Origin: a virus | Length of the DNA stretch: 32,023 nucleotides | Virus record (IMG/VR): IMGVR_UViG_3300044619_000607 | Coordinates: 1-32,023 of that record | Direction: 5' to 3' (one strand) | Shown here: positions 4,350-27,662 of the stretch, piece after piece | Numbering within the stretch: the first letter of the stretch is position 1 | Layout of the letters: every line of letters begins with the position of its first letter | Notes under the pieces: generated by a model | Databases searched by the model: none | What the model saw: only the letters and a program-made list of their open reading frames with translations | Told to the model about the DNA's origin: nothing | Translations under genes and position numbers: made by a program

Positions 4350-7300
4350 TTATCCTCTCAACTTTCTTGCAATCATTCGTGAGCGATCGCGCTCGTAAAG
4401 ATACGTATCCATGCCTACTTGCAGGTCTACTCCCATTTGGCCCTGAATACCATTCGGCATTGAGTCCAGACGCTGCCGAATTGCGGATAGCTCCGAGCGC
4501 ATAAGCTGCAATTCAGTTACTGGTATCGTGCTGATCTGGTTATCTGCTAGCATCTTCTGCAAAGCAGGGAATGACTCAAGCGATTTGCCGCTATGCAAGT
4601 GCTCAAGCAGCGCCCTGTTCTTGCGTGTTGTATCGGCAGTCATTACGAACTCTTGCCCGTGGACTACGCCCGCTACTTGCTTTGTGCCGCCGTTGCCCGT
4701 GTAACCGCCTTCTTCAAAGCCAGACAATGCGGACTGCAATAATGCCTTCAACGCTTGCACGGCTGCCAAACCCGCGATTTGTCCGAATGGCGGAGGGATA
4801 ACCGAGCTAAACAAGGCCACAATCGACGGCGTATACAAGTCAAGCAATGCGCTAACAGTCGAACCGACTACCTTCTTGAGTGCTTCCCCTGCGCTTTCAC
4901 CGCCCGCTACAAGAGATGCAAAAGCAGCACCCGCAGATACGGCTATCTGGTTAAGTGCAGCGTCCTGTACTTCCGCTGATTCTTTGGCTAACTTCTCATC
5001 TTCCTTCTTAAGATTGGCGCGATCCTGCGTATACTTTTCCTCTATCGCCTTGAGTGCTGCCTCGTAAACTTCCTTGTCTTTGATACCCTGATCTTGCAGA
5101 GCTTTAACCTCTGCTGCCTTTAGTTTTTCAAGGTCGATCTCTTGTTTAGCTATCTCTTTTCTACGTTCCAATGCAGCGTTTACCGTATTGATACCGTCCT
5201 GCGCTGCCTTTGCCTGCTGATCTGCGATAGCTTGGAATGCCTGCGAGATAGCCGTAGCCGTCGCACTTGCCGTCTGTTCTTGTTGTGATTGCAAGTTAGC
5301 AAGCTGATGTACCGATTCTTGGTAGGTCGCTGTACCGTCCTGCAAGTTCTCTATTAGCTTTTCTTGCTCTTCATTCAACGCCGCTGCTTTGTCCGCAGCT
5401 TCGCCGTAGATAGTCGCAAAATCTACCGAGCGCAGAGCTTCACCGATGCCACGCAATGAGTCTGCGAATATCTCCCCTGCCTGCTTTACCTGTTGCTGCC
5501 TTATCTGCGCTACAATGTCAGCCGTTCCCTTCGCAATCTCGTCTGCGCTCTGCTGGTATGCGGCGCGAATCTGCAAAGCGTACACATCTTTAGTATCGGA
5601 TGGTAGCGACTGCAATCGTGCAAGTATCTCTGCGCGTACTTTATTTGTACGCTCTGCATAATCGGCAGGATTTAGCAAGCCCTGCTCGATCTCTTTGTTA
5701 ATCTTTGCAATAGCAGCCGCATACTCTGGAGTAGATGCAATGATAGCGTCTACCGTTGCAGTCAGTCCGCGCTCAATAGCTGATCGTTGTGCGTTGAGAA
5801 CAGCCGTAGCAAGCGAGTTATCACCGCCTGCAAAGCGTGCCTGCAATCGTGCAAGTAATTGATCCGCTACTTTGGCGTTAAGCTCTTCTACTTTCTTTGC
5901 CTGCTCTTGCGCCTTTGCTAATTCATCGGCGCGCTGCTTTGCCCGTATTTGTGCAATAGCGTCTGCGCTTTCCTGCTCTAATTTCTTGAGCTGGATATTA
6001 AATATTTCGCGCTGCGTTGTCTCTAGCTTGCCCTTGCCCTTAATAGCTGCAAGCTGCTCATCCAATATCTTCTTCTGAAAGTCTCGCTCAATCTCAATGA
6101 TCTTAATTGCGCGCTTGTTTTCATCCTCGATAGACTGCGCATCTCGTATTTGCTGCCGCTTCTGTTCTTCCGCTGTTAGTGCTTTTAACTCTGCTTGCGC
6201 TGCCTTTAACGCATCGGCGTATGCCTTTTCCTGTTCTTTCTTTTTCTCTGCCGCTGCCGCTTGTTGCTCTGCTAGCTTTGCCGCCTCTTCTGGAGTAAGG
6301 CCGCCGTTGTTCGCTTTGTTAACATCCTCTTGCGCCTTTGCCTGTTCCTTCGTAGCGTCTGCATCTTTTTTCTTTGCTTCTGTCAACGTGCCAAATGCAG
6401 ACAAGGCGTTTTGGATGTTGCTTAAATCAAAAGAACTGACGGCGTTGACAAGCCCTACGATTGCATCGCCCAAGTTGGTAATAACTGTAAAGACAGTTTC
6501 ACCAAGTGACTTGAGATAGTTCCATGCTTTAGTTAAAAACTCTGAAGCCCCGGTAACGTCGCCAATCCATTTTACTAGCTTAACAAATGCGCTAATAAGA
6601 ATTTGGATAGGCGCAAACAATACACGTACGACCGTAAATACTGTCTTTAGTGCAAGTACAAATCCATTTATGGCAACGTTTACGATAGTGCCAATAACAT
6701 TGCCTAGCGTCTTCAGAATGTTCGTATCGCCGCCAAGCCCAGAAAATGCCCCTGCGATTACATCGCGTACCTTGCCAAATCCTTCGATAACAGGATTGAT
6801 AATAGGCACGATCAAATCTTTGTATATCGTATTGAGTGCCTGCCCAACTTCTTTCTTTGCAAGCTCAAAGATGCGCCCAAAATCTGGCGGCGGGATCGTT
6901 TGGTCAATTACCTTGCCCGCTTCTTGCGCTGCTTTTTTAACCGCCGCTGTATCAATTGGCGCGCTGAATATCTTACTATACGCTTCGCTACCAATGTCTT
7001 CCGCGATGGAGCCGCCAAAGGTAGTGAGCAATTGACCACGTAGCGACTGCGATATTTTGCCGTCCTTAAATGCCTTGTCAATCTCTGCGATAGATTGCGT
7101 AAGCACTTCCTTACCTGATAGCGTGCCCTTCTGCGCTTGCCGTGCTAGGTTCTCAAGCTGCTTGCTAGTCTCGCCGCCGATGCCCTGCAATTGGGTTAGC
7201 AGGTCGCCTGACTTAATACGATTTTGTAGCTCTTTGATACCATCGCCAACTTTGGCAAAGTCTTTAAGCCCTACTTCGCCCGCTTTGCCTAGCAGCCCTG

Positions 7301-24649: not shown

Positions 24650-25069
24650 TTATACTTCTTGTGTTGAAACTCCGGCTTCTGCGAACATCAGCCACCCTTG
24701 TTTGATTGAGTCATGCCAGCGATCAGCGTATGCGTTGTCTGGCTTAACATAAACTACTCTCGTAATGCCCCGCTGGATTATGTGTCCTGCGCAGTTAGCG
24801 CACGGGGCTGCCGTTACGTACATCGTGCATCCTCTGACGTCCGCTGCGAAGTGCAGCGCGTTGGCCTCGGCGTGAATGGTGCGATATAGCTTTTGATCGC
24901 GTGAGAAGCCGGACGGCTCTATACATCCCTTTGGTGCTCCGTTATAGCCGCAAGAAACAATCCTGCGGTCTGCATCTACTATCACCGCACCTACTTGCGT
25001 GCTAGGGTCTTTGCTCCACGTCGCTACCAGCTGCGCTAACTGCATGAATCTTGCATCCCATTTGCTCAT
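24650..25069 (-). CDS. Deoxycytidylate (dCMP) deaminase, 139 aa
   Basis: From the ATG at 25069 (ribosome site AAGGAGGATTG, one-base TGATG overlap with the upstream stop) the enzyme shows the zinc-site signature: HAEANA (67-72) with catalytic Glu69, and PCANC (89-93). TQVGAVIV (24-31), SCGYNGAPKGC (39-49) and TMYVTAAPCANCAG are all typical of ComEB/dCMP deaminases rather than cytidine deaminases or tRNA deaminases. It converts dCMP to dUMP, feeding dTMP synthesis for phage DNA. A longer frame to 25123 would overlap the nuclease gene by 55 bases and lacks a better ribosome site. Length agrees with phage T4 type minimal enzymes. Confidence 0.94.
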   Translation of the reverse strand: MSKWDARFMQLAQLVATWSKDPSTQVGAVIVDADRRIVSCGYNGAPKGCIEPSGFSRDQKLYRTIHAEANALHFAADVRGCTMYVTAAPCANCAGHIIQRGITRVVYVKPDNAYADRWHDSIKQGWLMFAEAGVSTQEV

Positions 25070-25368
25070 CAATCCTCCTTTAACACGTTGATTCGTGGTA
25101 AATCCGCTCCGATTATGTTGCACGCATCATCTATCGACCGTGCTACGCCGTACTGCCCTCTCCAATGCGCTGCAAACTCGTACTGATCTTCTGTCAGCTT
25201 GCCTTTGGCCTGCTTTACTTCGATCATGTAATTGCGTCCGCGCCATCCTACCACAAGATCGGGGAATCCCTGCCCTACTGCGCTCATAACAGCGACTGAT
25301 GCCCCAATCTTGCGTAGGTATGCTACTATCTCTTTTTGATTTATGTCCACCTTTGCTGCCCTTTTCAT
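25069..25368 (-). CDS. VRR-NUC domain nuclease, 99 aa
   Basis: This small protein has the PD-(D/E)xK core of the VRR-NUC family: GQGFPDLVVG (32-41) with the metal-binding Asp37, and YMIEVKQAKGKLTEDQ with Glu50 and Lys52. A first helix, QKEIVAYLRKIGASVAVM, precedes it. Single-domain VRR-NUC proteins are common in phages and are thought to act as Holliday-junction-resolving or structure-specific nucleases; Gln/Tyr in the final helix (EDQYEFAAHW) fits too. The start overlaps the stop of the PAPS-reductase-like gene (ATGA) but has only a weak ribosome site, so it is probably translated by coupling. Confidence 0.9.
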   Translation of the reverse strand: MKRAAKVDINQKEIVAYLRKIGASVAVMSAVGQGFPDLVVGWRGRNYMIEVKQAKGKLTEDQYEFAAHWRGQYGVARSIDDACNIIGADLPRINVLKED

Positions 25369-26600
25369 GATTCAAACAACGTTATTGGTAGATTTTCATA
25401 CATCATTTGATTTTTTCTTTTGCTCGCTAATGCTAAATACTTTTCATAAGCTGAACTTTTATGTTGTGTAAATGAAAGCCCCTTGCACCAATAATCATTG
25501 CGTAGTAAACTTTTACATACTCTGCGCCAGCTTGGAACTTTGCGCTCTTGCTCTAATCTATAATCTGCTTCATCTGGTATACCTTCTGGATATCCTCTTT
25601 CTATCCACCACTTTTGAAAGTGCATGATCTTTGCTTCGTAATGAGTACGTGTTTTAGGAGGCATTGACTTAACAAGCATTTGTGCAAAGCTCTTCCAAGT
25701 ATGATGCTCTGGTTTACTGATCTTTCTATATCCATTAACGTTGCCATTTTCCTGTATATATAGTGCGCCACTATTTGCTCCATTTACACGAGCTACAACC
25801 TTTGCCCATGTTTCGGGTTCGATTAAGTGATAAAGCCATAGACCGCGCCGTTGATCGTCACCATACGGTTGACAGATCCGCATTTGGTGGATAGTTAATC
25901 CGGCAAGGTGCATCCTGTTATAAAGTTCGTTTAATCTTTTGTCTGGATTTTTCGCATGATATATCCAAAGGTCTTCTGTTTTCCAATCATATACTGGATA
26001 GCAATTAAACACGTGTGGAGTAACTACCGTAGTATATGATTGATCTTTGTATCGCGCTTTTGTCGTGCTAGATATTGTACGCCATCTGTTCAATGACTCA
26101 TCACTTCTAATACCAACAAAGCATGCCGTTGTTTCATCTTCAGAATACCATTCGCCAAACAAAGGAACAAACTCTTCAAACTCCATGCCTTTTTGAAAAA
26201 AATCAAAATGCTTATGATTCGTAATTGAATACTTTGACGGATCACGTACCCAATCAAGTTGCCTTTCGTCATCCCAGCATAACCAATGCGGTTCGTATAC
26301 ACTTACTGCATTGCGCAAATGCAAGGGCAATGATACCCAAAATGGATTGATTATATCGGAATACTCATCAAACAACGATTCAACATGCTCAATTGTGAGT
26401 TTGTATTGAGCTTCTAAATCCACAAACAACAGCCCAATTTTCACATTTCTTTTGCGTGCCTCTTCAGCAACAATATGAAGCATGACGGTAGAATCTTTTC
26501 CACCTGAAAAAGAAACATATTGTCTTTGTGAATTGTCAAAAGCCCAAGATATTCTTTGCTTTGCAGCATCGTAAACATTTATACCAAGTCCCTTTTTCAC
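25365..26600 (-). CDS. PAPS-reductase-like PP-loop protein, IbrA-like (DUF3440), 411 aa
   Basis: The PP-loop is FSGGKDSTVM (31-40), in SQRQYVSFSGGKDSTVMLHI, with the adjacent strand VKIGLLFVDLEAQYKLTIEH, as in PAPS reductases and DndC, which activate sulfur or adenylate substrates. The C-terminal blocks (WKTEDLWIYHAKN, IHQMRICQPYGDDQRRGLWL, HTWKSFAQMLVKSMPPKTRT) and total length fit the DUF3440 family, whose member IbrA pairs with the ParB-like IbrB. Here the pair is present with one gene between. A GTG start at 26600 follows GAGGAGCAAGG and overlaps the previous stop. Four sampled 60-base lines give 86 G+C of 240, against 64 of 120 in two lines of the deaminase, suggesting a foreign origin. 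Confidence 0.88.
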   Translation of the reverse strand: MKKGLGINVYDAAKQRISWAFDNSQRQYVSFSGGKDSTVMLHIVAEEARKRNVKIGLLFVDLEAQYKLTIEHVESLFDEYSDIINPFWVSLPLHLRNAVSVYEPHWLCWDDERQLDWVRDPSKYSITNHKHFDFFQKGMEFEEFVPLFGEWYSEDETTACFVGIRSDESLNRWRTISSTTKARYKDQSYTTVVTPHVFNCYPVYDWKTEDLWIYHAKNPDKRLNELYNRMHLAGLTIHQMRICQPYGDDQRRGLWLYHLIEPETWAKVVARVNGANSGALYIQENGNVNGYRKISKPEHHTWKSFAQMLVKSMPPKTRTHYEAKIMHFQKWWIERGYPEGIPDEADYRLEQERKVPSWRRVCKSLLRNDYWCKGLSFTQHKSSAYEKYLALASKRKNQMMYENLPITLFES

Positions 26601-26998
26601 CCTTGCTCCTCAAAAATGTTTAGTTGGTAATTCTTTGTTTGTCGCTCAACCCAAATTTTGTACGCTATTTCAGCTTGTTCATTAGCTAAATCTTGTTGCT
26701 TTGGCGTTAAATGATGCCACGCCATGCGCACAATGTATTCTGGGCAATTAAAAGCAATGCAGCAAGCAGCATGACCAATCCATGCTTTGTGATTAATGTC
26801 AGCATTGGAAAGATTCTGATCGCATGAGATAGGCCATTGCGTTATTACTTGTTTCATCCAATGACCATAAAGCATGTGGTCGCCGGTAAACTCTATTGCT
26901 TTCTTTAGGTATTGCTGTTCCTGTTTAGTATCAACCCTTCTCCACATGCCTTGCTTGTATTCTTCCCATTGCAAATAGTTATGATATTTCTGTTTCAT
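26597..26998 (-). CDS. IbrAB-cassette middle protein of unknown function, 133 aa
   Basis: The ATG at 26998, preceded by AAGAGGATTACA, gives 133 residues; a start at 27058 would enter deeper into the ParB gene. The protein is rich in Trp, His, Gln and Lys (WRRV, HWMKQVITQWP, MAWHHLTPKQQ) and appears helical. A Cys pair in GHAACCIAFNCPEYIV and the two His around could form a metal site, but this is only a possibility. It overlaps the IbrB-like gene by 20 bases and the IbrA-like gene by four bases, so the three are made together. I do not recognise the family. The constant company suggests a partner or substrate-adaptor role in the cassette. Confidence 0.75.
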   Translation of the reverse strand: MKQKYHNYLQWEEYKQGMWRRVDTKQEQQYLKKAIEFTGDHMLYGHWMKQVITQWPISCDQNLSNADINHKAWIGHAACCIAFNCPEYIVRMAWHHLTPKQQDLANEQAEIAYKIWVERQTKNYQLNIFEEQG

Positions 26999-27647
26999 TG
27001 TAATCCTCTTGAACAGTAATATCTGCCGTCCATGCTTCGCTAAATTCCTTATCTGCAAACATTTCCGCTAGTCCAGTTATTTGCGTCAAGCGCAATACCT
27101 CGTCGCTATCCATGCCTAGCTCCCTTGCAATCTTTTCATCTGACCAATTACGGCGCTTTAACTCAATTACAATGTCAGACATTGCTTCTACCTTATGCTT
27201 TCCTCGTGCTCTGTTGTGACGTATGGTGCTCGCAATACGATCGTTACGGTCTGTGCTGTTTTGCTTTATTTCAACAAGTGGCAAGTAGCCGTGTACTCTA
27301 GTATTTATTTCTTTTGATTCTTTGCCTACACGATTTCTGTGAAATCCATCGACAACTTCATATTTGAAATCCCTTTTCCAGCCAACAATTGGTTGTGTAT
27401 ATCCGTCATTTTGTATCGAAATTTTTAGTAGCTCCATCTCCGGCGGTGCTACGCTATTTGGATTGTAGTCATTGGCTTCTACGGTATCGTTTTTAACCCA
27501 TACGACACAATCCACTGGTTCGCTATTAAATGGTGACACTTGGTGCAAATACCTTTTTGCCATATTGAGCATGTGTATTTTTTGGTCTACATCTTGCTCA
27601 TTGTCAATATGGCTAACCAAATCGTTTAGTAATTCGTTGTAATCCAT
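26979..27647 (-). CDS. ParB-domain protein, IbrB-like, 222 aa
   Basis: The ParB N-terminal fold is visible as NDYNPNSVAPPEMELLKISI (59-78), DGYTQPIVGW (81-90) and FKYEVVDGFHRNRVGKE with the DGFHR signature (94-110). A KorB-type helix-turn-helix follows (WSDEKIARELGMDSDEVLRL, about 168-187). This combination, and the partner at 25365-26600, correspond to the IbrB/IbrA pair, described in Escherichia as activators of prophage-borne genes. ParB-like domains can bind CTP or act as nucleases, which the sequence does not decide. The ribosome site AAGGAGGGAGCA is among the strongest here; the reverse complement of GGAGGGAGCAA also occurs on the plus strand at 28255-28265 (see findings). Confidence 0.86.
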   Translation of the reverse strand: MDYNELLNDLVSHIDNEQDVDQKIHMLNMAKRYLHQVSPFNSEPVDCVVWVKNDTVEANDYNPNSVAPPEMELLKISIQNDGYTQPIVGWKRDFKYEVVDGFHRNRVGKESKEINTRVHGYLPLVEIKQNSTDRNDRIASTIRHNRARGKHKVEAMSDIVIELKRRNWSDEKIARELGMDSDEVLRLTQITGLAEMFADKEFSEAWTADITVQEDYNETEIS

Positions 27648-27662
27648 TGCTCCCTCCTTGTA

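Follow-up and report, generated by a model that had tools for sequence, protein, structure and literature searches.

The DNA analyzed here, referred to below as the window, comprises the 32,023 bases of an IMG/VR virus record that is classed as linear and may be a fragment. Its portal, terminase and replication-type genes lie on the minus strand, and on the same strand a DUF3127 gene is followed by genes for a ParB-like protein (B), a middle protein (M) and an IbrA-like DUF3440 protein (A), and then by a VRR-NUC gene (Table 1). Inspection of the open reading frames bore out the three genes, their coordinates and the two overlaps that tie them together, all of which had been described in a first-pass annotation. 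Purine-rich ribosome-binding sites were found for ParB (AAGGAGG), for the ATG of M (AAGAGG) and for the GTG of IbrA (GAGGAG). The presence of its own ATG and AAGAGG site in M points to translational coupling at the ParB/M overlap and makes a programmed frameshift at this junction unnecessary. No tyrosine integrase was found in this possibly fragmentary record, and a lytic lifestyle of the phage is plausible.

Table 1. Features of the three-gene cassette in the window (plain positions) and of related loci (contig number before the colon).
Feature	Position	Strand	Evidence or remarks
Upstream cassette boundary, 15 nt, DUF3127 stop to ParB start	27648-27662	minus	sequence; holds ParB ribosome-binding site
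ParB/IbrB-like protein B, 222 aa	26979-27647	minus	phrog_2159 and ParB_N matches, motif conservation
Overlap of ParB end and M start, 20 nt	26979-26998	minus	sequence
Middle protein M, 133 aa, all-helical compact domain	26597-26998	minus	phage relatives, AlphaFold2 model
GTGA overlap of M stop and IbrA start, 4 nt	26597-26600	minus	sequence
IbrA-like protein A, 411 aa, A2 subtype; PP-loop SGGKDS, GIRSDESLNRW	25365-26600	minus	DUF3440, PAPS_reduct, phrog_2302
Downstream boundary ATGA, IbrA stop overlapping VRR-NUC start	25365-25368	minus	sequence
Protein "c", examples	L091:6278-6592, L007:6290-6598, L035:5290-5598
Ectoine synthase, examples among others	L006:4742-5641, L034:3509-5008, L091:5114-5482
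Protein in the slot of M in CV-1-33-like phages	L121:3078-3494, L122:3609-4004, L123:3636-4013, L010:571-948

The composition of the cassette had been noted as deviating, and sliding-window G+C indeed shows a step at both of its edges. The G+C content of the cassette is 0.391 (39.1%; IbrA 0.383, M 0.396, ParB 0.399), compared with 0.485 and 0.482 in the flanks and a mean of 0.486 (48.6±1.7%; sd 0.017, minimum 0.444) in other 2283-bp stretches of the window. At third codon positions G+C is 0.31-0.40 in the trio versus 0.44-0.62 in the tabulated neighbours. Contigs from four other metagenomes (L001-L004) encode cassette proteins identical to those of the window, and two of them (L001 and L003) share 99.9% identity with it over 9.6-10.2 kb, showing that several samples contain this virus.

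A sister contig, L005, has the same neighbour genes and a terminase 89% identical to that of the window. In L005, DUF3127 and VRR-NUC abut, and the B-M-A trio sits between a methyltransferase gene and the ORF that comes next. In the window the trio separates DUF3127 from VRR-NUC and the methyltransferase gene is directly next to that ORF, so that the site occupied in one phage is empty in the other. Between the two phages, B is 71%, M 70% and A 82% identical, compared with 31-89% for the proteins of the flanks, and both trios are rich in AT (G+C 0.39-0.42). The different locations with reciprocal empty sites indicate either that the trio was moved as one block or that it was acquired on two occasions. 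The cassette is thus compositionally foreign and has changed position, as a suggestion of recent acquisition would have it; "recent" cannot be claimed, however, since L005 has this AT-rich cassette too, with proteins 70-82% identical, and the cassette is therefore not new to the lineage. The dCMP-deaminase gene beside the cassette (window 24650-25069) is absent at that place in L005 (1695-1787), where a gene that by eye resembles a C5-methyltransferase is found downstream instead (5708-6853).

Protein A matches DUF3440 (E 5.5e-36, 124.5 bits, cut-off 25), PAPS_reduct (E 7e-13, 49.4 bits, cut-off 22.5) and phrog_2302 (E 1.1e-81), and has an IbrB/ParB partner adjoining it in the window. Residues S30, G34, K35, D36, S37, G163, R165, E168 and R172 are invariant, and the SGGKDS PP-loop, the GIRxxESLNR motif and D205, D210 and W212 are invariant or nearly so. 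None of its cysteines is invariant among 57 proteins (C372 is present in 53), a CxxC pair occurs in one of the 57, and CG[ILVM]H, the catalytic cysteine motif of PAPS reductases, in none of them. Matches to DndC are confined to a short PP-loop stretch of 59-99 residues and score 25-30 bits (25.3 bits for the window, where the TIGR03183 cut-off is 290.4), and the CysH model TIGR02057 scores 22.6 bits against a cut-off of 254.2. This pattern of motifs and cysteines fits an adenylate-forming ATP pyrophosphatase and argues against a sulfur enzyme of the DndC or CysH type.

Protein B matches phrog_2159 (E 2.3e-70) and, weakly and below the cut-off of 26.3, ParB_N (E 2.7e-4, 21.3 bits). Its ParB/Srx fold carries the motifs VDGFHR and IRHNRARG, and it also has a C-terminal HTH-like segment. 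DG[FY]HR was found in 134 of 138 B proteins and IRHNRARG is also conserved; the catalytic cysteine of sulfiredoxin (GCHR) is replaced by F, Y or A, and is never present at this position. Conservation of the HTH-like segment is strong even among phages whose hosts are unrelated (63 homologues). The ParB fold of other proteins binds CTP, ATP or GTP (PMC12704722). The nucleotide-binding motifs of the ParB/Srx superfamily are present in B, and from these NTP binding is predicted.

M is a real, unnamed protein family. The window protein matched no Pfam, PHROG, NCBIfam or PADLOC family and no PDB chain; a few members of the M family gave weak matches to known families. The possibility that M is hidden within phrog_2159 (length 365) was tested and is not the case. 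Using tblastn, we found M in six phage records, which represent four lineages with Mycobacterium, Pseudoalteromonas, Microcystis and Pseudomonas as hosts, and in all six it adjoins DUF3440 and ParB genes. Profile scans of IMG/VR yielded 399 relatives belonging to a single clade; when the profile was broadened, the number rose to at least 581. Alignment of 62 homologues showed W11, E12, M48, N69, A72, W73, G75, H76, A77, A78, R91, A93, W94 and A105 to be invariant (numbered one higher than in a count starting at residue 2), and this set of homologues, in which W, E, N and R residues are among those that never vary, rules out a chance ORF.

The AlphaFold2 model of M is a compact seven-helix domain (pLDDT 96.4, pTM 0.88). 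Foldseek returned nothing below E 1.0 among PDB structures (probability 0.15), and among the viral models of BFVD it returned one sequence homologue of 116 residues, which is probably the XCL1123 protein. A search of plasmids with M gave no match. Among 84,980 species genomes, a scan with the single motif AW[IV]GHAA[CA], which is present in 51 of the 62 aligned M proteins and misses the AWLGQA subfamily, was positive in one, a Planctomycetota MAG in which the contig with M is phage-like; this is also the one genome among 294 of Planctomycetota in which DUF3440 was found. M thus appears nearly confined to viruses, at least in the clade scanned with the motif. A tyrosine integrase was found in 6 of 37 M-bearing records, many of which are fragments, and 4 of 12 records lacking M carry a tyrosine or serine recombinase. 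These counts do not establish a virulent lifestyle as a defining trait of M: its carriers mostly, but not all, look non-integrating, with the proviso that many of the records are fragments.

The association of M with the other two genes is very consistent. Both A and B adjoin M on the same strand in 151 of 158 distinct M loci, where near-identical loci were collapsed and the remaining loci are partly related; the other seven loci are at contig ends. Three gene orders were found, B-M-A as in the window, A-B-M-c and M-(c)-A-B, and this variation indicates selection for the linkage rather than inheritance alone. The ParB/M junction is read through in 56 loci (43 distinct M sequences), giving a single ParB-M ORF of about 363-506 aa. 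In the model of one such fusion the M domain is mostly above pLDDT 90 and follows a low-confidence linker; with a pTM of 0.41, it predicts neither a fixed orientation nor an interface between M and B. A scan anchored on the IbrA of the window found M in 27 of 44 distinct loci, which shows that the linkage does not arise from using M as the query. Together with the two sites in the sister phages, the constant company, gene orders and fusions substantiate the earlier proposal that the three genes form a self-contained module. The first-pass annotation had named a lack of conservation of M with the pair and a missing G+C step at the cassette edges as refuting it, and neither was observed. M is very probably the missing third part of an IbrA/ParB machine, and nothing on a third partner of IbrA/IbrB was found in the literature.

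Phages CV-1-33, PhiR5_2, CHPC1230 and phiFN37 have the pair in the order A-B without an adjoining M. An unrelated protein of 125-138 aa overlaps the IbrA start by about 20 nt in CV-1-33-like phages, occupying the slot of M (Table 1). In the Fusobacterium phage phiFN37, a second ParB directly precedes a queuine tRNA-ribosyltransferase gene (L013:9748-11033), a few genes from the IbrA-ParB pair. Other observations concern loci with M: an ORF in the trio locus of Nebkiss is annotated as GIY-YIG and has no Pfam match (L006:5631-6005), a GIY-YIG-like ORF was recognized by eye in the trio locus of another phage (L038:2532-2852), and on a 114-kb contig M-IbrA is followed by two diverged genes, a further IbrA-like ORF and a ParB (L134:6479-9055).

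Loci of the A1 type have the order A-B-M-c, with "c" directly after M. This protein of about 100 aa has a weak DUF3440 match and resembles residues ~323-399 of the IbrA of the window, without the conserved cysteine of that C-terminal segment; its best matches are to the A1 C-terminus in 30 cases and to the A2 C-terminus in 21. In locus L017, both types of A flank B-M. This gene order suggests that M may work with the C-terminal part of IbrA. Of 33 A1-type loci, 25 encode an ectoine synthase (PF06339, E 1e-33 to 1e-43), either between IbrA and ParB or fused to the ParB N-terminus (18 loci); it was found in none of the 24 A2-type loci, which include the window.

IbrA and IbrB are known from an island of E. 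coli ECOR-9, with YbdN/YbdM as their counterparts in K-12, and DUF3440 and ParB pairs are known in phages. In work attributed to Sandt in 2002, E. coli IbrA/IbrB are said to activate prophage eib genes. We know of no modified base, tRNA or other product of a DUF3440 system. The link to IbrA/IbrB made in the first-pass annotation is correct by homology: A and B of the window are homologous to IbrA and IbrB, the genes are adjacent and often overlap, and the IbrA of E. coli phage PhiR5_2, which carries IbrA-IbrB, is 45.7% identical to A. The trio nevertheless falls outside the two-gene definition of IbrA/IbrB, because the third gene is conserved between or beside the pair, while it is absent beside the pair in PhiR5_2 and the other three phages named above. 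Phages Gaia/Nebkiss, XCL1123, Mwe-JY13 and Amjad_SA have M beside DUF3440 and ParB as in the window; Mwe-JY13 and Amjad_SA also share its gene order, while Gaia/Nebkiss and XCL1123 have A-B-M-c with ectoine synthase. None of these loci is annotated as a system.

With DndC, BrxP and SspD, A has in common the PP-loop ATP pyrophosphatase core, and the wider phosphorothioate system includes a ParB-fold protein, DndB. A differs in having neither cysteine pairs nor full-length similarity, and in its partners. Dpd resembles the trio in that DpdB, a ParB-like ATPase, works with a base-modifying enzyme in 7-deazaguanine DNA modification (PMC12839542); a TGT/DpdA gene was not recognized beside the trio.

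Based on established knowledge of the PP-loop and ParB/Srx families, we tentatively prefer a reading in which the trio is a virus-specific, three-subunit form of IbrA/IbrB (YbdN/YbdM) that acts as one ATP-dependent complex and modifies nucleic acid. A, B and M likely form a complex in the window phage; nucleic acid as the target is our best guess, which we hold with some reserve. A would bind ATP at its PP-loop and activate a substrate as adenylate. B would bind and probably hydrolyse NTP, and its HTH-like segment would bring the complex to nucleic acid; the use of the ParB-like DpdB in DNA modification provides a precedent for such a complex (PMC12839542). M, which folds as a separate helical domain in the models, would be tethered to B, through translational coupling in the window and through a flexible linker in the fusions, and could serve A and B as the subunit that recognizes a substrate or partner, although its role cannot be read from structure since it has no fold relative. 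The most likely outcome would be covalent modification of phage or host nucleic acid during infection.

One alternative is a transcription co-activator, in which B binds DNA, A is a nucleotide-dependent switch and M adapts the complex to RNA polymerase. Homology to IbrA/IbrB, described as turning on eib prophage genes, and the HTH-like segment of B are consistent with this. However, the segment is nearly invariant among phages of Mycobacterium, Pseudoalteromonas, Microcystis and Pseudomonas, which is improbable for phage-specific operators and fits a common target better, the invariant PP-loop residues fit catalysis better, and ectoine synthase is added in some loci; we consider this role fairly unlikely. 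A specific form of nucleic-acid modification is an undescribed, virus-borne hypermodification, in which A would adenylate a base or linkage, B deliver it, M present the target and the ectoine synthase of A1 loci mature an amino-acid-derived group; such a system may shield phage DNA from host defences or reprogramme tRNA. In this specific form we think it unlikely.

The ectoine synthase may instead point to small-molecule synthesis, with A, B and M, together with this enzyme in A1 loci, making an amino-acid-derived signal, inhibitor or osmolyte. Its frequency in A1 loci and its fusions to ParB agree with such a function, as do SerK and sulfiredoxin, ParB-fold proteins in which ATP binding serves small-molecule or protein chemistry (PMC12704722). 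Its absence from all A2-type loci and the HTH-like segment of B, which suggests a nucleic-acid partner, make this distinctly unlikely. DndC-like DNA phosphorothioation, a theme raised in the earlier annotation, has in its favour the shared PP-loop superfamily and weak DndC/BrxP matches; given how short and low-scoring these matches are, the lack of conserved cysteine pairs, and that dndA/D/E were not recognized beside the cassette in the window, this theme did not hold and is highly improbable. Least probable is a viral cysH (PAPS reductase) helping host sulfur metabolism, for which the PAPS_reduct match and the naming in phage annotations speak, and against which stand the missing catalytic motif, the low CysH score and the constant partnership with ParB.

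DUF3440/IbrA proteins occur widely in phages, where PAPS reductase is a common annotation for them. According to the results presented here, they form part of a multi-protein machine whose third subunit has no known fold and is largely restricted to viruses. They also call for caution in viral metagenomes, where such genes should not be counted as sulfur-assimilation genes. The fusion proteins, the minimal operon and the cultured carrier phages, whose hosts are Mycobacterium smegmatis, Pseudoalteromonas, Pseudomonas and Microcystis, offer a handle on the function of IbrA/IbrB systems.
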